Source: a virus. Taken from it: a stretch of DNA of 64,000 bases. The stretch is from IMG/VR virus record IMGVR_UViG_3300038441_000458, positions 1 through 64,000 of that record. One strand, 5' to 3'. Shown in pieces: positions 8,019 to 48,679 of the stretch. How positions within the stretch are numbered: the stretch's first letter is position 1; every line of letters begins with the position of its first letter. The notes beneath the pieces are model-generated. The model worked only from the letters and a program-made list of their open reading frames with translations. It ran no database searches and was not told where the DNA came from. The translations under genes and the position numbers were made by a program.

Positions 8019-8285
8019 GTGGAAGGAACAGAAGGCAAGGTGGAGACGAAGACCACCACGAAGCGCATCCCGGCTGAGGTCCAGATTCGGGAGTTCCACG
8101 GACGGGCATTCTCGTCGTTCTACACGGAGGCGGCAACGATTGACGACTGCCCGATCAATAAGATCGGCAGGAGCGAGACCAGCCCGTTCATCTTCTACCT
8201 GTTCAACAGCGGGAAGTTGGTTGCGGAAGTGGACGTCCAGCGGGCGATTATGGCGGCAGTGGCCGACCAGGAAGGGCGAGCGTAG
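8019..8285 (+). CDS. Small unknown early protein
   Basis: This gene encodes 88 residues from GTG with AGAGGAGCAC just upstream; no ATG fits. It contains EVQIREFHGRAFSSFYTEA and SPFIFYLFNSGKLVAEVD, apparently a small beta-rich domain. It immediately precedes parB and ends 4 nt before its ATG, so the two are probably co-translated. Confidence 0.5.
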   Translation: MEGTEGKVETKTTTKRIPAEVQIREFHGRAFSSFYTEAATIDDCPINKIGRSETSPFIFYLFNSGKLVAEVDVQRAIMAAVADQEGRA

Positions 8286-8289
8286 CACC

Positions 8290-9189
8290 ATGACAGACAC
8301 GACACAGCGAGACCTTGCAGACCTGTACGGCGACACCGAAGGCATGGATCGCCAGGAGACGGCAGACGTCCTCCTGCAACTGATCGAGGACCTTCCAGCG
8401 GCCGTGCCGGCCGATCTGAAGCGGAGCATCCAGACACGCGGGCAGATGGTGCCAGTGATCCTCAACGCCAGCGAGGACCGCGAGACCTACACGATCATCG
8501 ACGGGCGGCGACGCATCCGGGCGATGCGCGACCTTGGGATGGTGGCAGTGAGCGCGGTCGTGTACAACGCGCCAGACATGGTGGGGTGGGCTATGGCGGC
8601 GACCGCGAACGCGGTCCGGGGAGACAACCCGGAGAATGAGCTAGAGGCGATTGAGGCACTGACCGGCGAAGGCTACACGGAGAGCCAGATTGCGCAGGCA
8701 ACCGGCATGAGCGTCCAGACGATCAGGAAGCGCGAGCGGTTGCTGGTGCTGGCCCCGATCCTTCGGGAAGGATTGAAGACCGGCAAGCTGGCCATTGGCG
8801 TGGCAGAGCAGATCGCGAAGCTGCCAGAGGAGGCGCGAGCGCGAGCGGCCGCGATCTTTGCGGAGGACGGGAAGATCACCGGACACCAGGTGCGGGAGTT
8901 GCTGGCCGTGGAGCGCGACGAAGCGACCGCGAGCCTGTCCGAGGCGATCTTCGGGGAGCCGGTTGACGAAGCGACCCGCTGGCGCACGACCTTGCGCCAG
9001 GCGAAGGAGCGCATGGACACGGCCGCATTCGACGCGGCGATGAAGGAGTTGGGGTATGTCCGGGCAGAAGTTGCGACCAGCGAAGCGGATCAAGGTGCAG
9101 CACCGGGAGGCGAGCCCGCAGGGACGCCAGTGGCCGGTAAGCGTAAAGTTGGGCGTCCCCGAAAGAATGCTCCAGCCACAACCGGATGA
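8290..9189 (+). CDS. ParB-family DNA-binding protein
   Basis: This gene encodes 299 residues. Residues 30-115 form a ParB/Srx N-terminal domain with DGRRRIRAMRDLG (71-83), equivalent to the nucleotide-binding GERRxRA box of ParB CTPases. About 125-215 is the KorB/ParB HTH (YTESQIAQATGMSVQTIRK), followed by RERLLVLAPILREGL and GKLAIGVAEQIAKLPEE. The tail carries an AT-hook-like GRPRKNAP. Known ParB proteins load at parS and slide on DNA; a perfect parS lies 1.4 kb downstream. No ParA is visible. The 3' end overlaps the next gene by 134 nt. Confidence 0.75.
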   Translation: MTDTTQRDLADLYGDTEGMDRQETADVLLQLIEDLPAAVPADLKRSIQTRGQMVPVILNASEDRETYTIIDGRRRIRAMRDLGMVAVSAVVYNAPDMVGWAMAATANAVRGDNPENELEAIEALTGEGYTESQIAQATGMSVQTIRKRERLLVLAPILREGLKTGKLAIGVAEQIAKLPEEARARAAAIFAEDGKITGHQVRELLAVERDEATASLSEAIFGEPVDEATRWRTTLRQAKERMDTAAFDAAMKELGYVRAEVATSEADQGAAPGGEPAGTPVAGKRKVGRPRKNAPATTG

Positions 9190-24594: not shown

Positions 24595-25233
24595 GTGGCA
24601 GAGAGCAGTTGGCAGAACAGGATCACCAGGACCGGCGAGGAGGACCCGCGAGACCTCCAGGCAAACCCGGCGAACTGGCGCACGCATGGCCAGGAGCAGC
24701 GAGACATTGCCGTGGCGATGATCGGCTCGACCGGGTGGGTGCGAGACGTGATCGTCAATGAGACGACCGGGCACCTGCTGGACGGGCACATGCGCGTCGC
24801 CCTTGCCGTGGAGCGCAGGATGCCAACGGTGCCCGTCTCATACGTGGCACTGACAGAGGAGGAGGAGGCGCTGGCACTGGCGACCTTCGACCCGCTGGCA
24901 GAGTTGGCGCTCACGGACACCGGGAAGCTGAGCCAGGCGATGCGGAACGGCAACGTCGAGGATTGGGCAAGCGCCTTGCTCGGCGCGATGCGCGAGCGCG
25001 CGGGAGCACCGGACGAACTGCCGACCGGAGCGGTAGCGTTCCGCGAGGAAGCGATGGACTCCTACCTGAACGGCGACCAGCGGCAGATACACGTCCCGAT
25101 GCTGGTCGAGGAGTACGTCGTGGCAGACATGGCGATGGGCGCGATCAAGACGGCGCTCGACTTCGGGCGCAACACGGACGTGCTGCTGTGGCTGATCGAG
25201 CAGGACCAGGAAGCGCAGGCGACAACGGTATGA
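24595..25233 (+). CDS. ParB-like nuclease-domain protein 1 of tandem pair
   Basis: This gene encodes 212 residues from GTG with CAGGGAGCATGAC upstream. Residues 20-110 form a ParB/Srx-type domain: LQANPANWRTHGQEQ and TGHLLDGHMRVALAVERRM, the DGHxR box of phage ParB-like proteins often linked to DNA methylases. The C-terminal region (IHVPMLVEEYVVADMAMGAI) is unassigned. It lacks the KorB HTH of the ParB at 8290. It lies just before the modification operon. Confidence 0.65.
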   Translation: MAESSWQNRITRTGEEDPRDLQANPANWRTHGQEQRDIAVAMIGSTGWVRDVIVNETTGHLLDGHMRVALAVERRMPTVPVSYVALTEEEEALALATFDPLAELALTDTGKLSQAMRNGNVEDWASALLGAMRERAGAPDELPTGAVAFREEAMDSYLNGDQRQIHVPMLVEEYVVADMAMGAIKTALDFGRNTDVLLWLIEQDQEAQATTV

Positions 25234-25916
25234 CAGAGACATGGGAGCAGCGGATTGTCGGACACGCCGAAGTTGACCCGGCGACCCTGAAGGCGCATCC
25301 GGGGAACTGGCGCGTCCACCCGACGAAGCAGCGCAGCGCGATGGGAGACGTTCTCGGTGATCTGGGGTGGATTCAGGGCATCCTGGTCAACCAGCGAAGC
25401 GGCTACGTGCTGGACGGGCACATGCGGTTGGACATGGCGGTACGCACCGGCCAGGCGACCGTGCCAGTGACCTACGTGGACCTCAGCGATGAGGAGGAAA
25501 TGCGGGTGCTGGCGACCCTGAATCCGCTCGGGGCGTTGGCCGGCACGGATGAAGGCAAGCGGGCGGCGTTGCGGGAACTGATGCACACGGAGCGCGAGAG
25601 CCTGCGGCTGTTGGCCGGGTTCGCAGCGGAGAGCCAGGAGCCAGCAGAGGACGATGACCGGGCGGCGCTGGTTCACGATCACACGGCGGCAATCGTGGCG
25701 GGCGACGATGAAGACGGCGAGGACCTTGCCGAAGACTACGGCTCATTCGAGGACCAGTACAGCGGCACGTCGATCAAGCTCATCAACTTCGTTATGACGA
25801 AGGAGGAGTTCGAGACGATCATCACGGCGCTGGAAGTAATCGGCGAGCGCGAGAATCTGGCGAGCAACGCAGACGTGGTCCTGTGGCTGTTGGAAGAATA
25901 CGAAGTCGAACGCTGA
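25230..25916 (+). CDS. ParB-like nuclease-domain protein 2 of tandem pair
   Basis: This gene encodes 228 residues, start overlapping the previous stop. LKAHPGNWRVHPTKQRSAM and SGYVLDGHMRLDMAVRTGQ parallel the upstream protein, and both end in a related LLWL(I/L)E motif (VLLWLIEQDQ, VVLWLLEEYE), so the pair arose by duplication. An acidic linker (DDEDGEDLAEDYGSFED) separates it from the tail domain. Role unknown; pairing with base-modification genes is suggestive. Confidence 0.65.
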   Translation: MTETWEQRIVGHAEVDPATLKAHPGNWRVHPTKQRSAMGDVLGDLGWIQGILVNQRSGYVLDGHMRLDMAVRTGQATVPVTYVDLSDEEEMRVLATLNPLGALAGTDEGKRAALRELMHTERESLRLLAGFAAESQEPAEDDDRAALVHDHTAAIVAGDDEDGEDLAEDYGSFEDQYSGTSIKLINFVMTKEEFETIITALEVIGERENLASNADVVLWLLEEYEVER

Positions 25917-25936
25917 ATATTCGTCGACGAAAACAC

Positions 25937-26027
25937 TTGACAACGGACGCGCCTACCCCCATACTTCACTCATCAGGTTGAGGGAGGCGGGAAGGACCCG
26001 CCACCCGACACCGGAAGGGCAAGCACA
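25937..26027 (+). promoter_or_regulatory. Repeated promoter unit 5 (modification operon)
   Basis: TTGACA 25937-25942, 17 bp, CATACT 25960-25965, preceded by ATATTCGTCGACGAAAAC. Hairpin 25982-26006: GGCGGG/CCCGCC plus GGG/CCC around loop AAGGA, a clear compensated variant of the usual stem. GAAGGGCAAGC before ATG 26028, 91 nt from the -35. Confidence 0.85.
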
Positions 26028-26321
26028 ATGTTCATGGCGCAGTTCCGATCCACCGGCGAGACCGAGTTCAAGACCTTCTACGGACCAGTCTTCACCCGCA
26101 CTCGGGCGCAGGAAGCAATCGACGACGCGGCACCATGCGGCCGCGAGTACCGGATCGTGGAGACACCGGAGTTGTTCAACATCGACATTCTCCCGGAGAC
26201 CATTCGCCACTACTACCCGGCAGAGCGACCGTGGGTCGTGGACCTTGGGCAAGAGAACAACTGGAACACCTTCGCCACCCGCGAAGCAGCCGAACAGTTC
26301 ATGGCGGAGGAGCGATCATGA
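26028..26321 (+). CDS. Unknown first protein of the modification operon
   Basis: This gene encodes 97 residues, alpha/beta (MAQFRSTGETEFKTFYGPVF, then RYYPAERPWVVDLG-like strand). No motif recognised. Its stop overlaps the methyltransferase ATG, so it is co-translated with it and might modulate it; that is inference. Confidence 0.5.
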   Translation: MFMAQFRSTGETEFKTFYGPVFTRTRAQEAIDDAAPCGREYRIVETPELFNIDILPETIRHYYPAERPWVVDLGQENNWNTFATREAAEQFMAEERS

Positions 26322-26998
26322 GACTGCTCGACCTCTTCTGCGGAGCCGGAGGAGCCGGAGAAGGCTACCGGCGAGCGGGATTCGATGTGACCGGCGTGGA
26401 CCTGAGTGCCATGCCGGAGAACCCGCACACGTTCATCCAGGCGGATGCGCTCGACTACCTGCGCGAGCACGGACACGAATACGACGCGATCCACGCCAGC
26501 CCGCCATGTCAGGCGCACAGCATCACCCGGAACATCTGGAAGGACAACGTCGCGTGGCAGGAGGCGCACACGGACATGATCGGCGCGACGCGTGACCTGT
26601 TGGAGGCGAGCGGCAAGCCCTACGTGATCGAGAACGTTCCCGGCGCACCGCTCCGCAACCCGATCACGCTGTGCGGAAACAGCTTCGGGCTCCGCGTCTA
26701 CCGGCACCGGCTGTTCGAGGCGAACTGGATGCTCATGGCGGCACCGCACGTGAAGCACGTCCATCGCGCAAGCTATGGCCGGATTCCGGTTGGCGAGGAG
26801 TTCTACACGATCAGCGGCCACTACGGCGACTTCGCCGGAGCGAGCGCGGCAATGGGCATCGACTGGATGACACATAAGCAACTGGCGCAGGCGATCCCGC
26901 CAGCCTACACGGAGCACATCGGTTTACAGTTACGGGAGTTGCTGGTAAACTTGCAAGATGAACACAAAGACATGCTCCCTGACGGGATGCGACCGTGA
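26318..26998 (+). CDS. C5-cytosine DNA methyltransferase
   Basis: This gene encodes 226 residues. Motif [21 protein letters not shown] binds S-adenosylmethionine; motif [12 protein letters not shown] carries the catalytic Cys; motif [12 protein letters not shown] has the ENV triplet. It transfers a methyl to cytosine C5. The target-recognition region is very short compared with restriction-type enzymes (300-400 residues), suggesting a short or loose recognition sequence. It overlaps the HNH gene by 41 nt, so its last dozen residues may derive from that insertion. It would make the 5mC substrate for the TET-like enzyme downstream. Confidence 0.88.
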
Positions 26999-27488
26999 AC
27001 ATTACGCGAGAGGATACTGTGCCCTTCACTATCAGCGGTGGCGCACGAAAGGCGACCCCGAACACAAAGGTGATGGACGATTCAGGCCAGGTCCCGACCC
27101 GCGTCGCCGATCAGAGCGAATGCGTTGCAGCGTTGACGAATGCGATCGAAATGTTGCAAGCAACGGCATGTGTCGGATGCATTGGGGAAGACAACAGCGC
27201 AGGGAAGCAGGAGTACCCGAGCGAAAAAAGTTCTTCGAACCAAGGAACCTCAAGAGCGGATACGTTCAGGTCCACGTTGACGGAAAATGGAAAATGGAGC
27301 ACCGGGTTGTCATGGAGAGGCACCTTGGGAGACCCCTCACACCCGAGGAGACAGTTCACCACAAAAACGGACATCGAGCCGACAACAAAATTACCAACCT
27401 CGAACTGTGGACATCAAAGCACCCTGCCGGACAACGCGCCGAGGACCTACTCGAATTCGCGCGCGAGATCATCAAGTTGTACGGATGA
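26958..27488 (+). CDS. HNH endonuclease with Cys-rich N-terminus, likely mobile
   Basis: This gene encodes 176 residues. Two related Cys/His modules ([20 protein letters not shown] and [20 protein letters not shown]) precede an HNH_3 domain: [20 protein letters not shown], then [18 protein letters not shown]. Base use is visibly more A-rich than the surrounding genes, and it sits between the methyltransferase and the rest of the operon, both signs of a homing-type insertion. It overlaps the methyltransferase 3' end. Confidence 0.8.
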
Positions 27489-27542
27489 CGATAAGCACAT
27501 CGGGAACCAACTGATGCGCATTCTGACCGAAGGAGCAAACGA

Positions 27543-28754
27543 ATGAGCAAGGAACTCAGCAAGGTTGGCGACCAGATCACCGTGGTCGATAGCGACGTTG
27601 CCGAAATGAAGGTGACGCTTCACCTCATGGACGGTTGGCTGTCGGTGACAGCAGAGCGTCCACACCACATCTTCCAGGTGCCAGTGCGGGCACCAGCGCT
27701 GATGCAGGCGAGCCCGGAGGAGTCCACGCTACGCCGGATTGCCGACCTCGAGAAGGCGGTGAAGGCGAACGCTGAGATGTGCGACGCGCGATCAACATGG
27801 GCGCACGAAGCGAATACGCAACTCATGGCAAAGATCAATGCGTTGCAGCCGGAGGCATCAGCGGAGGACCAGGAGTGGACCTGCACGGCGTGTTACGGAC
27901 GCGGCGACGCCAGAGGCGAGAACGATGAAGGGTGGGAGTGCAGCGTGTGCGACGGCACCGGCGAGCAGGAGCCGGAGCCGGAGCCGATCACGGCGCGAGG
28001 ACCGAAGGCGCACTCGCTGAAGACGCTGCGGCCGTTCTTCGAGGCGATCAAGCTGCGAGAGAAGACCTTCGAGATACGGAAGAACGACCGCGACTACCGG
28101 GTGGGAGACACGCTGATACTGTGCGAGTGGACCGGCGAGGCGTATACCGGGCGAATGCTGGACACCGAAGTGACCTACATCACGGACTACGACCAGCAGC
28201 CAGGCTACGTCGTGATGGGACTTCGCCTGTTGGAGCGAGGCGTTGACGACCAGGAAGCGTGGGAGGTGATTGCAGAGCGGGCGTGTGATGAATACTTCGA
28301 GCAGCCAATTTGGCATGCCCTCTCTTCGGCCGGGAAGGACTCTTGGCGGCAGGTGGCGCGCGCGGTCGTTGCAGAGGCGGTCAGGCGAGACATTGTGGTG
28401 TCGCACCCGCAACTGAAGCGCGAGCGCGAGAACGTTGCAGCGATCACCCGCGAGAAGACCATCGGCGAGTTCAAGCAGGCACCGTCCCAGCACGTTCCAC
28501 CCGAGGATCAGCCTGCGATGAATGCCGATGAGGCGGCAGACCTCCCCTCGCTGACGTGGGGGCACCTCACGGCCGCACACAATGCGTTCAAGGCGCATCG
28601 CCAGCAGTATCCAGACGAGAACGCAGAGTGGGGCGCGATGGGCACGGCGATCCTTGCCGCCAGGCGGTACGAGCGCAACCGGAAGACCAGCGACTACCCG
28701 ATCCCGGCCGTGTTCGCTGGCCCGTTCCGCAACCGGAAGGAGCCGACCGAATGA
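27543..28754 (+). CDS. DUF3850 (ASCH-like) protein with zinc knuckle
   Basis: This gene encodes 403 residues. Central CTACYGRGD and CSVCDGTG form a DnaJ-type zinc knuckle, then an EPEPEP linker, then DUF3850 (HSLKTLRPFFEAIKLREKTF, RKNDRDYRVGDTLILCEW), an ASCH-superfamily domain. ASCH/YTH-like folds bind RNA or modified bases, so it may recognise or protect modified DNA here; that is inference. The C-terminal 170 residues are helical and unassigned. Confidence 0.65.
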   Translation: MSKELSKVGDQITVVDSDVAEMKVTLHLMDGWLSVTAERPHHIFQVPVRAPALMQASPEESTLRRIADLEKAVKANAEMCDARSTWAHEANTQLMAKINALQPEASAEDQEWTCTACYGRGDARGENDEGWECSVCDGTGEQEPEPEPITARGPKAHSLKTLRPFFEAIKLREKTFEIRKNDRDYRVGDTLILCEWTGEAYTGRMLDTEVTYITDYDQQPGYVVMGLRLLERGVDDQEAWEVIAERACDEYFEQPIWHALSSAGKDSWRQVARAVVAEAVRRDIVVSHPQLKRERENVAAITREKTIGEFKQAPSQHVPPEDQPAMNADEAADLPSLTWGHLTAAHNAFKAHRQQYPDENAEWGAMGTAILAARRYERNRKTSDYPIPAVFAGPFRNRKEPTE

Positions 28755-29221
28755 GCGACCAGAGCAGCGGCATCATCGGATTCATCAAGGCACGCGAGCA
28801 GGCGCTCGACAACAGCAGGGCGCACACGGAGAGCCCGCTGACCAGCCACCGCGTCGACAAAATCCTTCAGGACTGCCGCATCCGGGAAGGCGAGGACGAA
28901 CTGACGATGATCGTCGTCGAAGGCATCCAGCGCGTCTACGGATTCCACCCGCAGCGGTTGGCCGCGCACCGCGAGGACATTCGGCTGATGCTCGGCGAAC
29001 TGGACGATACGTTCCAGGAGGAGAAGGGCGGCTGGTCGTTCCTGAACGCCTGCATGGACCGGCGCGGCGACCAGTGGACAGACCTGCACCCGACGATGGA
29101 GGCGCTGCTGGTGATGGGCCAGGCGCTCGACCTTGGCGCGTTCATGCCAGGACGCGAGTTGTGGCCGATCCTGCCAGGCGGGATGCCGTACTACGTTTGC
29201 GCGAAGGAATGCCGACCATGA
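28751..29221 (+). CDS. Unknown protein of the modification operon
   Basis: This gene encodes 156 residues, helical (DQSSGIIGFIKAREQALDNS, LTMIVVEGIQRVYGFHP), start and stop both overlapping neighbours by ATGA. It has no catalytic motif I recognise. Invariant coupling to the dioxygenase suggests an accessory role. Confidence 0.5.
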   Translation: MSDQSSGIIGFIKAREQALDNSRAHTESPLTSHRVDKILQDCRIREGEDELTMIVVEGIQRVYGFHPQRLAAHREDIRLMLGELDDTFQEEKGGWSFLNACMDRRGDQWTDLHPTMEALLVMGQALDLGAFMPGRELWPILPGGMPYYVCAKECRP

Positions 29222-30090
29222 GCCAGGCACCATCAGCCGTTCGCGAGCGGGTGCTGACGAAGCGCACGCTGAACCTGAAGGACTACAAGCACCGGAGTCC
29301 GGCAGAGGAGGACTACAGCGAACTCATCACGGAGCCCTCGCTGATCTTCGATGCCGAAACCAACAATCTGGAAATCGTGTATCTGGTGCTGGACGACGAC
29401 ACCACGCAGATTGCGGAGGCGTTGCAGCGCATCCGGTTCGGGAAGACGGTGAGGACCAGCGGCCTGGTGACGACCAGCCGGGTGATCGGGAACCAGCCGC
29501 GCAACCTGCCGCAGCGCGACCACTGCACGGCGAGCAGCCTTGCCACGGAGGACCCGGAGGCGCATCACGTGATCGCGTCGTATGCGGAGAAGATCAGCCA
29601 GTACTATCACGACTACAACCCGGCGCTCTACGACCGGCACCAGGAGGCGACGCAGAAGGTGCTCGACGACTGGCGGATGGAAGGGAGCGTCTTCACCAGC
29701 GGCATCATCAACCGGAACAACCCGCTGAGCTACCACTTCGACGCAGGCAACTTCAAGAACGTTTGGAGCAACATGCTGGTGCTGAAGCACGACGTGACCG
29801 GAGGCTACCTGAGCGTCCCGGAGTACGACGTTGCGTTCGCCTTGCCGAACAACAGCCTACTGATGTTCGACGGGCAGAGCCTCCTGCACGGCGTGACGCC
29901 TATCGGACGGCACAGCGAGGACGCCTACCGCTACAGCATCGTGTTCTACAGCCTGAAGCAGATGTGGCAGTGCCTTCCGGTCACGGACGAATTGATCCGC
30001 ATTCGGAAGCGGAGGACAGACCGCGAGCGAGCCCGCGCCAGGGGAGAAGTGGACCAGACGATCATCGACCAGAAGGACCGCAAGCAGTGA
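29218..30090 (+). CDS. TET/JBP-like 2OG-Fe(II) dioxygenase
   Basis: This gene encodes 290 residues. The double-stranded beta-helix core has the iron ligands His173 and Asp175 (LSYHFDAGNF), distal His224 (SLLHGVTPI) and Arg239 (YRYSIVFY) for 2-oxoglutarate. INRNNPLSYHFDAGN and SVPEYDVAFALPNNSLLMFD match TET/JBP-family phage enzymes, which oxidise 5-methyl groups of pyrimidines in DNA. With the C5-methyltransferase upstream the expected reaction is 5mC to 5hmC. A thymine-hydroxylating JBP activity is the main alternative. Translationally coupled on both sides. Confidence 0.8.
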   Translation: MSQAPSAVRERVLTKRTLNLKDYKHRSPAEEDYSELITEPSLIFDAETNNLEIVYLVLDDDTTQIAEALQRIRFGKTVRTSGLVTTSRVIGNQPRNLPQRDHCTASSLATEDPEAHHVIASYAEKISQYYHDYNPALYDRHQEATQKVLDDWRMEGSVFTSGIINRNNPLSYHFDAGNFKNVWSNMLVLKHDVTGGYLSVPEYDVAFALPNNSLLMFDGQSLLHGVTPIGRHSEDAYRYSIVFYSLKQMWQCLPVTDELIRIRKRRTDRERARARGEVDQTIIDQKDRKQ

Positions 30091-30971
30091 GGACGATAGA
30101 CCGGGTAGAACCGGCGTTCGCCGCATTCGCCCGACACCATGTCGAGACGGGCGACATCGACCCGGCGTACCCCGTCCTTCGCTCCCTGATGGATCGTTGG
30201 GGACTTGACACGGAGGAGCGGCTGTGGCTCCTGACGCTGCACCTTGCCTACTACCAGATCGGCAGCGCGATAGTGGCGTTCGACCTGACCGGAGGACGCG
30301 CACGACGGCGCTACCCAGAGGCAATGCGCGACCTTCCCTGCAACACGGAGCGGCGCGGGCTACGCGGCGGGAAGGCGGTGGACTACATCGACATTGTGAG
30401 CCAGGCGACCAGAAACCAGGAGGCGTACTGGTTCACGGACCTTCCCGGCACACCAGAGGCGGCGTTCGACCTGACGTGGGCGAGAGCAGTAGCCTTGCCG
30501 TACAACGGGCGATGGGCGGCGTTCAAGTGGATAGACCTGCTGATGCACACGATGGACGCGCCAATCGCGATGCCGGACATGCGACTCGACCAATGCACCG
30601 GACCGCGAGAAGGGCTCTCATGGCTCTACGACGATCCGACCGCAAGCACCAGCACGCTCACGCGACACGCTGAGGACGCGCGCGTACGGTTGAAGCACCA
30701 CGGCATCGACGTGCCGTGGGACCAGTTGGAGACCGTTCTGTGCGACTGGAACAGCCTCCGAAAGGGACGGTATTACGTCGGGCACGACATAGATAGCCAG
30801 TTGCACGACCTACGGATTGCGGCAGAGCACACCGGGCTCTACCTGGACAGCATGGAGGCGCGAGCAGAGACCTTCCCGGACGCCTATCTCGGCGAGCGGC
30901 ACGGATGGGACGGTCCTGACCGGGAGCGACGCCGCACCTACCGCGACACCGGAGAGGTTGTGCTGCGATGA
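30087..30971 (+). CDS. aGPT-Pplase-like DNA base-modifying transferase
   Basis: This gene encodes 294 residues from GTG overlapping the dioxygenase stop. GRWAAFKWIDLLMHTMDAP and VLCDWNSLRKGRYYVGHDID (217-236) match the alpha-glutamyl/putrescinyl thymine pyrophosphorylase group, helical DNA-glycosylase-fold relatives. Known members in Pseudomonas phages displace phosphate from activated hydroxymethyl-uracil and attach an amino acid or amine. Here the substrate is predicted to be phosphorylated 5hmC made by the neighbouring enzymes. Family call is from motif recall. Confidence 0.72.
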   Translation: MRTIDRVEPAFAAFARHHVETGDIDPAYPVLRSLMDRWGLDTEERLWLLTLHLAYYQIGSAIVAFDLTGGRARRRYPEAMRDLPCNTERRGLRGGKAVDYIDIVSQATRNQEAYWFTDLPGTPEAAFDLTWARAVALPYNGRWAAFKWIDLLMHTMDAPIAMPDMRLDQCTGPREGLSWLYDDPTASTSTLTRHAEDARVRLKHHGIDVPWDQLETVLCDWNSLRKGRYYVGHDIDSQLHDLRIAAEHTGLYLDSMEARAETFPDAYLGERHGWDGPDRERRRTYRDTGEVVLR

Positions 30972-31870
30972 ACTTGCTGGTGGTGGGAGCCGGATTCTGG
31001 GGAAGCACGGCGGCGATCATTGCCCGCGCGCACGGTCACGCGGTGACGGTGCTGGACGACGGCAACCCGCGAGGCGCGAGCCGAAACGCAGCCGGGATGG
31101 TGCATCCAGAGTGGTACAAGCACGCCAGCGGTGCAAGCTACCGGATTCCCACGCGCTGGACACCGGCACACATCTCCGAGAGCATCGGGTGGCTAGAGAC
31201 GACATGGGGCGCAACCAGTCGAGGCGAACTGTTCAGCAGTTACCATAACCCGGAAGCGTGGAGACATAAGCCAGGACTCCGCACCCTGCACAACCCGCTG
31301 GCGATCCTGGAGTCGGCAGAGCCGGAGCGGGCGAGGATTACGCACGTCGAGCCCGCGCACCAGGGATGGGCTGCAGTGGCAGAGGACGGCCGCACGTGGG
31401 AGGCACGCACGCTCCTGCTGGCGACCGGCGCATGGACCGATGCCATACTCGAGACCAGCGGGCTTCCACCAGTCGGCGTCGTGCCCTTGCGAGGACACGC
31501 GCTCATCATCACCGGAGACCTTGTAAGCGACTTGCCCATGACGCGGTATGTCGCACCGTATAGGCACTACACGATCCGGCCATGGTTGAAGCGTGGCCAG
31601 TGGCGAGCAGGCGACACCGTCGAGCGCACCATCAGCACCGAACGCGCAGCGGCAACACTCGGAACCTTGCGCGACTATTGCAAGACCATGATCCCGGAAC
31701 ACCAGGAACAGGACGTGCTCGACGGCTATCGACCGATCCGACCAGATCACGGCATGGACGTCGAGACCATCGCCCCAGGATTGCTGGTAGCCACCGGAGG
31801 ACACCGCATCGGACTCGGCGTTGCCGCTGTGGCAGCGCACGACGTACTACGACGAATGGAGACACCATGA
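30968..31870 (+). CDS. DAO-family FAD-dependent oxidoreductase (glycine-oxidase-like)
   Basis: This gene encodes 300 residues. N-terminal Rossmann NLLVVGAGFWGSTAAI with GxGxxG, then DDGNPRGASRNAAGMVHPEW, and C-terminal RPIRPDHGMDVETIAPGLLV and ATGGHRIGLG typical of DAO flavoproteins. In thymidine hypermodification a related flavoenzyme acts on a glycyl adduct in DNA to give an aminomethyl base. The same chemistry on a cytosine adduct is predicted here. Start overlaps the previous stop (ATGA). Confidence 0.78.
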   Translation: MNLLVVGAGFWGSTAAIIARAHGHAVTVLDDGNPRGASRNAAGMVHPEWYKHASGASYRIPTRWTPAHISESIGWLETTWGATSRGELFSSYHNPEAWRHKPGLRTLHNPLAILESAEPERARITHVEPAHQGWAAVAEDGRTWEARTLLLATGAWTDAILETSGLPPVGVVPLRGHALIITGDLVSDLPMTRYVAPYRHYTIRPWLKRGQWRAGDTVERTISTERAAATLGTLRDYCKTMIPEHQEQDVLDGYRPIRPDHGMDVETIAPGLLVATGGHRIGLGVAAVAAHDVLRRMETP

Positions 31871-32412
31871 CCAGGCGACCACTCCTCTACGTGATCGGTC
31901 CCAGCGGGAGCGGCAAGAGCACGCTGGTACGACACCTGCTCGGCGACCTGACCAGGGCAGAACTGAAGGACCCCATAGGCCATATCCTCTACCGCAGCGG
32001 AGCGATCCAGTTGGGAACCAATCGCACGACCTTCAGCGGCACGGACGCCTTGCCCCTGAACGTCAACCCAAAGGCGATCCGGTTCATCCAGGAGACCAGC
32101 GCACCCGCAGTGATCGCAGAAGGCGACCGGCTGGCTAATGACAAGTTCTTCGACGCAGCGATCAAAGCCGGTTGGGACCTGACCATCGTGTACCTGAGCA
32201 TCACCGACGATGAGTGCGCCAGACGGCGCTCAGAGCGTCACCACGCCATGAGCCCGTCGTTTGTGAAGGGCAGGGCAACGAAGTCCGTAAACCTCTACAG
32301 GCGCTGGCAGGCGAGCGCCAACGTCCTCATCCTCAACGCCAACCGCGCACCAGAGGACATCGCCCGCGAACTCACCAGCCACCCGGCAGTTCGTATAGCC
32401 CGTGGAGGCTAG
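31867..32412 (+). CDS. P-loop kinase, predicted hydroxymethyl-base DNA kinase
   Basis: This gene encodes 181 residues. Walker A GPSGSGKST (11-19); conserved blocks LGTNRTTFSGTDALPL and VIAEGDRLAN, and RRSERHHAMSPSFVKGRATK match the phage base-kinase group tied to DNA hypermodification. It would phosphorylate the 5-hydroxymethyl group in DNA to activate it for the transferase. Last gene of the operon. An ordinary nucleotide kinase is less likely given the GTDALP and EGDRLA blocks and the context. Confidence 0.72.
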   Translation: MTRRPLLYVIGPSGSGKSTLVRHLLGDLTRAELKDPIGHILYRSGAIQLGTNRTTFSGTDALPLNVNPKAIRFIQETSAPAVIAEGDRLANDKFFDAAIKAGWDLTIVYLSITDDECARRRSERHHAMSPSFVKGRATKSVNLYRRWQASANVLILNANRAPEDIARELTSHPAVRIARGG

Positions 32413-47844: not shown

Positions 47845-47921
47845 GCGTCTTTAGCCCAATTGGCAGAGGCGACCGCTTCAAAGGCGGTAGGTTCCAGGTT
47901 CGAATCCTGGAAGACGCACCA
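47845..47921 (+). tRNA. tRNA-Leu(CAA), short variable loop
   Basis: 77 nt with encoded CCA. Acceptor GCGTCTT/AAGACGC, anticodon stem ACCGC/GCGGT with loop TTCAAAG (anticodon CAA), T-arm CCAGG-TTCGAAT-CCTGG. The variable region is only AGGTT, whereas bacterial tRNA-Leu normally has a long variable arm, so its charging identity is uncertain. Confidence 0.8.
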
Positions 47922-47992
47922 GGTGGTTGTAGTCGGAAACGATTCCCACCGAAGACCAGCGGGGAGTTGTTTGCCCTTCGACCCGCTGGCAT
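47922..47992 (+). other. Structured spacer in tRNA array
   Basis: Two hairpins: GGTGG/CCACC (47922-47950) and CCAGCGGG/CCCGCTGG (47956-47989). No anticodon arm is identifiable. Possibly a decayed tRNA or a processing structure. Confidence 0.45.
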
Positions 47993-48075
47993 GGATGGTG
48001 ACTGGCAGGACGAAGACACCCGCTTGAAACGGGCTGGCCCACCAGGGCTCCAGGGTTCGATTCCCTGACCATCCT
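47993..48075 (+). tRNA. tRNA-Ser(TGA)
   Basis: Acceptor GGATGGT/ACCATCC, anticodon stem CCCG/CGGG with loop CTTGAAA (anticodon UGA), class II variable arm (CTGGCCCACCAGGG), T-arm CAGGG-TTCGATT-CCCTG. The D-arm is poorly formed and CCA is not fully encoded. Identity fits serine by anticodon and long arm. Confidence 0.75.
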
Positions 48076-48093
48076 CCGCTGACGAATAGGCGA

Positions 48094-48167
48094 AGTCCCG
48101 TAGCTCAACAGGGAGAGCACTGGTTGAAAGACACCAGAGGCACCAGGCTCAACACCTGGCGGGTGAT
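48094..48167 (+). tRNA. Degenerate Phe-like tRNA
   Basis: D-arm GCTC/GAGC is good, and CTGGT/ACCAG can form an anticodon stem, but its loop TGAAAGAC is 8 nt; GAA would be the anticodon. T-stem CCAGG/CCTGG has the non-canonical loop CTCAACA, and only four acceptor pairs form (CCCG/CGGG). Probably a decayed or atypical tRNA. Confidence 0.45.
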
Positions 48168-48209
48168 GCAAGTACGTCAATCCTGAATCAGCCAGGATAG
48201 TCGGCGACA

Positions 48210-48282
48210 CGGTGTCTGGCCCAATTGGCAGGGCACCCGGTTTGGGACCGGGAGATTGCAGGTTCGAGCCCTGCGACGCCGA
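48210..48282 (+). tRNA. tRNA-Pro(TGG)
   Basis: Acceptor CGGTGTC/GACGCCG (one G-U) with the C1:G72 pair typical of proline tRNAs, anticodon stem CCCGG/CCGGG with loop TTTGGGA (anticodon UGG), T-arm GCAGG-TTCGAGC-CCTGC. Confidence 0.88.
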
Positions 48283-48283
48283 C

Positions 48284-48388
48284 CGGGAAGGGTTCCATCC
48301 TCCCTTCCCACACCGCAGGCGGAACCAAGCGCCATCTGCGGCGAGCCCGGAACAGGGTAACTTGACCCTTCCCCCGGTCCGGGCTCAT
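48284..48388 (+). other. Structured spacer in tRNA array
   Basis: Three consecutive hairpins: GGGAAGGG/CCCTTCCC (48285-48309), CCGCAG/CTGCGG (48313-48341) and GAGCCCGGA/TCCGGGCTC (48343-48386) with an inner AGGGT/ACCCT stem. No tRNA core is recognisable. May guide processing or be tRNA remnants. Confidence 0.5.
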
Positions 48389-48461
48389 GCCAGTGAAGCT
48401 CATGAGGATGAGCGGCTGTTTTGTAAACAGCAGGTAGCGGGTTCGATTCCTGCGACTGGCT
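48389..48461 (+). tRNA. tRNA-Thr(TGT)
   Basis: Acceptor GCCAGT/ACTGGC with a G7-G66 mismatch, D-arm GCTC/GAGC, anticodon stem GCTGT/ACAGC with loop TTTGTAA (anticodon UGU), T-arm GCGGG-TTCGATT-CCTGC. Confidence 0.85.
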
Positions 48462-48469
48462 CCGGCGAT

Positions 48470-48593
48470 GCGCGAGGATTAGATTCGACCCTGCCTCGCG
48501 AGCAGCCGAACGGGAGCGGCAGGGATTGTTGTCATGACTTTATTTGCAGAGTTCATGGTGGGCGGCGATCCCTGCTCAACCCGTTACCCGCGA
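48470..48593 (+). other. Structured spacer, tRNA-like remnant
   Basis: Contains CGCGAGG/CCTCGCG (about 48473-48500) and an 8-bp pair GCAGGGAT (48519-48526)/ATCCCTGC (48568-48575) closing 41 nt, like an acceptor stem without recognisable arms. No gene. Confidence 0.4.
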
Positions 48594-48679
48594 GGACCGG
48601 CACACTCATTGGCGAGAGTAGCTGGCTGTAAACCAGTGGCGCACGCGCTTTGGCGGTTCGATTCCGTCCCGATCCACCA
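48594..48679 (+). tRNA. tRNA-Tyr(GTA)
   Basis: 86 nt, class II, with CCA encoded. Acceptor GGACCGG/CCGATCC (one C-A mismatch), D-arm ACTC/GAGT, anticodon loop CTGTAAA (anticodon GUA), long variable arm, T-arm GGCGG-TTCGATT-CCGTC. Confidence 0.8.

Follow-up and report, generated by a model that had tools for sequence, protein, structure and literature searches.

We analysed a 64,000-nucleotide stretch of viral DNA (positions 1 to 64,000 of IMG/VR record IMGVR_UViG_3300038441_000458, hereafter the window). Six of its genes, coding for two ParB-like proteins, a TET/JBP-family dioxygenase (TET), an amino acid:DNA transferase (ADDT), a DAO-family flavoprotein and a P-loop kinase, probably form a unit that hypermodifies thymine in already replicated phage DNA, with the C5-cytosine methyltransferase that lies among them working separately. 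An earlier reading (the original prediction) had placed the methyltransferase, TET, ADDT, flavoprotein and kinase in one operon for the hypermodification of cytosine. All five genes are present where it had put them, with the family matches given in Table 1, and the last four are indeed coupled by four-base overlaps: GTGA between TET and ADDT at 30087, ATGA between ADDT and the DAO gene at 30968, and ATGA between the DAO and kinase genes at 31867. The two ParB-like genes are part of the same conserved unit.

The route that we infer would begin with the TET, which, probably guided to its DNA sites by the ParB-like proteins, would turn thymine in DNA into 5-hydroxymethyluracil (5hmU) by hydroxylating its 5-methyl group. 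The kinase would then phosphorylate the hydroxyl of 5hmU, the ADDT would swap this phosphate for an amino acid (probably glycine, as for gp46 of phage PaMx11), and the flavoenzyme, as in PaMx11, would cleave the adduct to leave 5-aminomethyl-deoxyuridine. The methyltransferase would serve ordinary methylation protection. A halt at the 5-aminomethyl base is reasonable, because no homolog of the radical SAM or pyridoxal phosphate (PLP) enzymes of phage M6 or of the PaMx11 acetyltransferase was found in the window, in line with what had been predicted; none was found among the open reading frames (ORFs) of the other TET loci either.

TET, transferase and flavoenzyme

The window TET scores 62.5 bits against Tet_JBP (curated cut-off 34.9), and its HxD...H metal site and 2-oxoglutarate (2OG)-binding arginine (H173, D175, H224 and R238) are invariant across 80 phage TETs. 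The three metal ligands had been named correctly before; the arginine had been given as R239, a position occupied by tyrosine. An AlphaFold model built on 80 relatives (mean predicted local distance difference test score, pLDDT, 94.8) has a TET-like double-stranded beta-helix fold: the best folds in the PDB are CcTet, NgTet1 and TET2 (E about 1e-12 to 1e-10), and the top 26 matches are all CcTet, NgTet1, TET2 or CMD1. The enzyme is predicted to oxidise a 5-methylpyrimidine in DNA. We considered reading the base specificity from the active site, where the histidine of 'VYFAH' in NgTet1 aligns with L246 of the window TET; this leucine is near-invariant in the TET group, TETs beside methyltransferases included, and does not discriminate between bases. 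A search of 84,980 bacterial and archaeal species, with one genome per species, gave neither relatives of the TET clade nor prophage copies, suggesting that these phages rarely lysogenise. The PHROGs label of the TET family, 'queuine tRNA-ribosyltransferase', is misleading.

Profile searches with the products of the genes at 29218 and 30087 return Tet_JBP and ADDT, as had been expected of them, and for 30087 also the PDB entries 25qc (1.9e-20) and 8z2m (1.4e-14). Only three PDB entries match the ADDT model (mean pLDDT 95.8) below 0.001, and each of them is PaMx11 gp46, a 5-phosphomethyl-deoxyuridine (dU) glycinyltransferase; the model's sole credible fold match is 8z2n/8z2m (template modelling score 0.68-0.70, fold E 6.6e-6). 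The M6 homolog is gp51 (73 bits). The DAO protein matches the flavin-dependent lyase of PDB 8z2o (6.2e-9), the aligned sequence being PaMx11 gp47, with 26.5% identity over 321 alignment columns, which is low overall. The lyase role of the PaMx11 flavoenzyme is said to go back to Lee et al. 2021, and the PDB titles agree. The nearest solved relatives of both ADDT and DAO act on thymidine derivatives. The earlier proposal that the TET makes a 5-hydroxymethylpyrimidine, on which kinase, transferase and flavoenzyme act as in M6 and PaMx11, thus appears sound in outline, given the gp46 and gp47 sequence matches and the gp46 fold.

In the cluster of PaMx11 (gp46-gp51, NC_028770), as in the window, the transferase gene is followed by those of the flavin-dependent lyase and then the P-loop kinase (gp46-gp47-(gp48)-gp49), and in the window TET replaces the thymidylate-synthase homolog of PaMx11. 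That homolog, the acetyltransferase and a separate helical kinase partner are present in PaMx11 and were not found in the window, whereas the window has TET and ParB-like genes. The M6 cluster (gp51-gp58, NC_007809; 5-aminoethyl-dU) resembles the window in its ADDT homolog and P-loop kinase, but it differs by lacking TET and by encoding a thymidylate-synthase homolog as well as radical SAM and PLP enzymes. Neither M6 nor PaMx11 combines its thymidylate-synthase homolog with a TET, and the thymidylate-synthase family PF00303 was found in 0/45 TET records (8 including the window's own, plus 37), many of which are fragments, so that each absence is weak singly though the picture is consistent overall. 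The genome of phage Kikipoo, without a Tet_JBP match, gave no PF00303 either. It would thus appear that TET and thymidylate synthase are alternative entries to the same intermediate, pointing to thymine as the substrate.

Partner genes and the probably inserted methyltransferase block

With duplicates removed, two scans yielded 165 TET loci, of which the 120 with at least 5 kb of downstream sequence were used for partner counts. A ParB-like gene is present at 118 of these 120 loci, directly upstream of TET in 109. Wherever ADDT occurs the kinase occurs with it (33/33 loci, ADDT alone at none), and DAO was found with ADDT only (11/11). A C5-methyltransferase shows no association with ADDT, lying at 3/33 ADDT loci against 3/87 other TET loci (Fisher p 0.34). 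Searches of whole records with PF00145 found a C5-methyltransferase in 2/10, 2/45 and 6/50 TET-bearing records and none in 95 of the 105, four complete named phages included. The window methyltransferase itself falls just under the PF00145 cut-off; the first set of ten was re-searched with phrog_363, which returned the same two relatives plus the window, and small methyltransferases may be undercounted in the two larger sets (95 records), which this repeat left out. The methyltransferase label is spread over the TET tree, where it requires nine changes, at least eight of them forced by well-supported branches. For a background rate of C5-methyltransferases we turned to relatives of TerL and DnaB, for which the scans gave no TerL relatives and a single DnaB fragment, so that no rate could be derived.

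The methyltransferase has all its motifs, as had been claimed, and the phrog_363 match at 26315-26965 is the single C5-methyltransferase found in the window's record. Its proposed membership of the same operon does not hold. The gene forms a coupled pair with the small ORF at 26028, lies outside the overlapping run from TET to kinase, and is separated from TET by 2.2 kb and three genes (HNH, ASCH/DUF3850 and phrog_26039), of which phrog_26039 alone overlaps the TET start; the whole block follows a promoter-like site. Together these genes split ParB2 from TET (25917-29217). In the closest relative, IMG/VR contig 3300012682_000229 (identities of 73% for TET, 71% for ADDT, 63% for DAO and 51% for the kinase), the order is ParB1-ParB2-TET-ADDT-DAO-kinase-TerS; in this contig the ParB2 stop overlaps the start codon of TET, with no methyltransferase between. 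Given that ParB lies directly upstream in most TET loci, the simpler reading of these two states would be that the block was inserted in the window.

Among 80 IMG/VR homologs of the window methyltransferase (1.19 Mb of sequence), none has TET, ADDT, DAO or kinase in its flanks, and the named relatives are mostly mycobacteriophages, the best at 52-54% identity. We judge the methyltransferase to be an accessory gene outside the core pathway. Phage DNA methyltransferases are known to have ParB-domain genes as companions (PMC12783734). Another identity considered for the window methyltransferase, a CmoX-like carboxymethyltransferase (PMC12783734), is unlikely, as no arginine is seen by eye at the motif X position.

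Weighing thymine against cytosine and packaging

The kinase carries the blocks GPSGSGKS, GTDALP and EGDRLA (the last two as predicted), and its residues G11, G14, G16, K17, G50, G58, D60, E85 and G86 are common to M6 gp54 and PaMx11 gp49. M6 gp54 matches the 5-hydroxymethyl-dU (5-hmdU) DNA kinase in Pfam (7.7e-18).

Several observations weigh against a thymine pathway. Firstly, the window phage encodes a motif-complete C5-methyltransferase, and phage TETs that oxidise 5-methylcytosine (5mC) made by a co-encoded methyltransferase have been described by Burke et al. 2021, as far as the account in PMC12730594 goes. Secondly, two TETs of the same clade as the window TET directly adjoin a C5-methyltransferase (L007, 3519-7309; L097, 9764-11457), the only such loci found. 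Thirdly, the product of the gene at 31867, expected to fall among base kinases, does belong to a P-loop kinase family (Ploopntkinase3), but not to the family of the M6 enzyme (HMUDK_HMUD1), and a model of the helical kinase partner (HMUDK_hel, from M6 gp55 and PaMx11 gp50) finds nothing in the ORFs of the window or the TET loci. A kinase homolog also stands beside the terminase in Kikipoo, without any TET. Finally, the association counts treat related records as independent, and many of these records are fragments.

The first two observations are what would favour the original choice of substrate, in which the methyltransferase, 2.2 kb upstream of TET on the same strand, makes 5mC, TET turns it into 5-hydroxymethylcytosine (5hmC) in DNA, and kinase, transferase and flavoenzyme carry it on to 5-aminomethylcytosine. 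We regard this as rather unlikely: the methyltransferase block is missing at the same site in the closest relative, homologs of the methyltransferase do not occur near TET, a C5-methyltransferase is missing from the majority of TET-bearing records, and those relatives of the downstream enzymes that have been characterised work on thymidine derivatives. Moreover, L007 and L097 have neither ADDT nor kinase. The TETs of these two loci are candidates for genuine 5mC oxidisers. L007 has the order ParB-TET-ParB-C5-methyltransferase, and every one of six new homologs of its methyltransferase comes with a ParB of its own but without TET; L007 therefore looks like two adjacent modules. The systems of Burke et al., as described in PMC12730594, resemble the window in having TET plus a C5-methyltransferase, but there TET works with the co-encoded methyltransferase and with glycosyltransferases, whereas in the window the methyltransferase is not a conserved partner. 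That phage DNA here contains 5-aminomethylcytosine, with a kinase, transferase and flavin lyase so far known for thymine alone having switched to cytosine, is unlikely.

TET-family enzymes can be promiscuous, and with both genes in one genome the TET might oxidise thymine for the cassette as well as 5mC from the methyltransferase, giving a phage with both modified thymine and 5hmC. No evidence connects the two genes functionally, and we hold such a double role to be improbable. A 327 kb contig (L008, IMG/VR 3300028800_000001) has two different TETs together with ADDT and kinase, and a C5-methyltransferase about 35 kb away.

The Kikipoo observation, together with the PHROGs call of terminase small subunit, might instead be taken to mean that the kinase is a DNA-packaging protein and not a base kinase, the remaining genes then acting unlike those of PaMx11. 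This is very improbable, since the kinase is present at every one of the 33 ADDT loci that extend far enough downstream, and M6 gp54 and PaMx11 gp49 bear the same terminase label even though gp54 scores in Pfam as a 5-hmdU DNA kinase. In Kikipoo (NC_028907, L281) the homolog occupies 1-567, directly upstream of the large terminase, and is annotated as terminase small subunit; we judge the corresponding PHROGs name of the family to be misleading.

The phrog_26039 protein was considered as a diverged helical partner of the kinase because BLAST aligned a short stretch of it with M6 gp55 (6e-4, against a very small database), and this idea failed both in Pfam and in a profile search. Its matches in the named-phage collection are to proteobacterial phages, many of them jumbo.

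Table 1. Genes and sites of the cassette and of the inserted block in the window.
Feature	Position	Strand	Evidence and remarks
ParB-like protein 1	24595..25233	+	GTG start; PHROG ParB-like/DNA methyltransferase-associated families, best 8.4e-15; 51% identical homolog adjoins TET in the closest relative (L005)
ParB-like protein 2	25230..25916	+	PHROG ParB-like partition protein 2.2e-14; likely DNA-binding or recruiting partner of TET
Promoter-like site TTGACA-17-CATACT, start of inserted block	25937..25965	+	Consensus scan alone, 10/12 matches
C5-cytosine DNA methyltransferase, short target-recognition region	26318..26998	+	phrog_363 8.7e-40; motifs FCGAGG, PPC, ENV, RHR
HNH endonuclease, inserted block	26958..27488	+	HNH_3 5.8e-9
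ASCH/DUF3850-domain protein, inserted block	27543..28754	+	DUF3850 1.1e-24, ASCH 4.6e-5
phrog_26039 protein, overlaps TET start	28751..29221	+	phrog_26039 2.5e-27
TET/JBP-family 2OG-Fe(II) dioxygenase	29218..30090	+	Tet_JBP 3.6e-17; H173, D175, H224, R238; predicted thymine 5-hydroxylase on DNA
Amino acid:DNA transferase (ADDT)	30087..30971	+	ADDT 1.8e-18; PaMx11 gp46 homolog
DAO-family flavoprotein	30968..31870	+	DAO 8.4e-25; homolog of flavin-dependent lyase PaMx11 gp47
P-loop kinase (Ploopntkinase3), predicted 5-hydroxymethylpyrimidine DNA kinase	31867..32412	+	PF18751 7.8e-26

Named relatives and significance

Cassettes similar to that of the window are already present in named actinophages, and the chemistry is of a known kind. 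Tonitrus, Gordonia phage Wooper, Mycobacterium phage Phelemich and MO526 have a tight TET-ADDT-kinase run with a ParB-like gene before TET, and the blocks of Phelemich and MO526 include DAO, as in the window. The TETs of these four phages fall in a clade of their own, with 27-35% identity to the window TET, and unlike the window their genomes have no C5-methyltransferase. Mycobacterium phage Reprobate has the same core, DAO included. Within the TET-started thymine group the window is a divergent member, its TET belonging to a clade apart from the actinophage examples. We know of no bench demonstration of a TET-started thymine route. For Rhodococcus phage Tonitrus (ParB, TET, aGPT-Pplase2 and kinase) a putative thymidine hypermodification has been proposed by annotation alone (PMC11955845). 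Thymines derived from 5hmdU are present in the DNAs of M6, ViI and phiW-14, which many restriction enzymes fail to cut (PMC6449724).

Elsewhere in the window, away from the cassette, another protein of ParB type (domains ParB_N and HTH_ParB) is encoded at 8140-9189, and a cluster of five tRNAs (Leu, Ser, Pro, Thr and Tyr) lies at 47845-48679.

If the proposed pathway is true, a large group of ParB-linked phage TETs would be thymine hydroxylases acting on DNA, and 5hmU could arise after replication and not via the nucleotide pool. The same tailoring enzymes could then be fed by either entry step, and public phage genomes would be corrected where TET is labelled 'queuine tRNA-ribosyltransferase' and the kinase 'terminase small subunit'.

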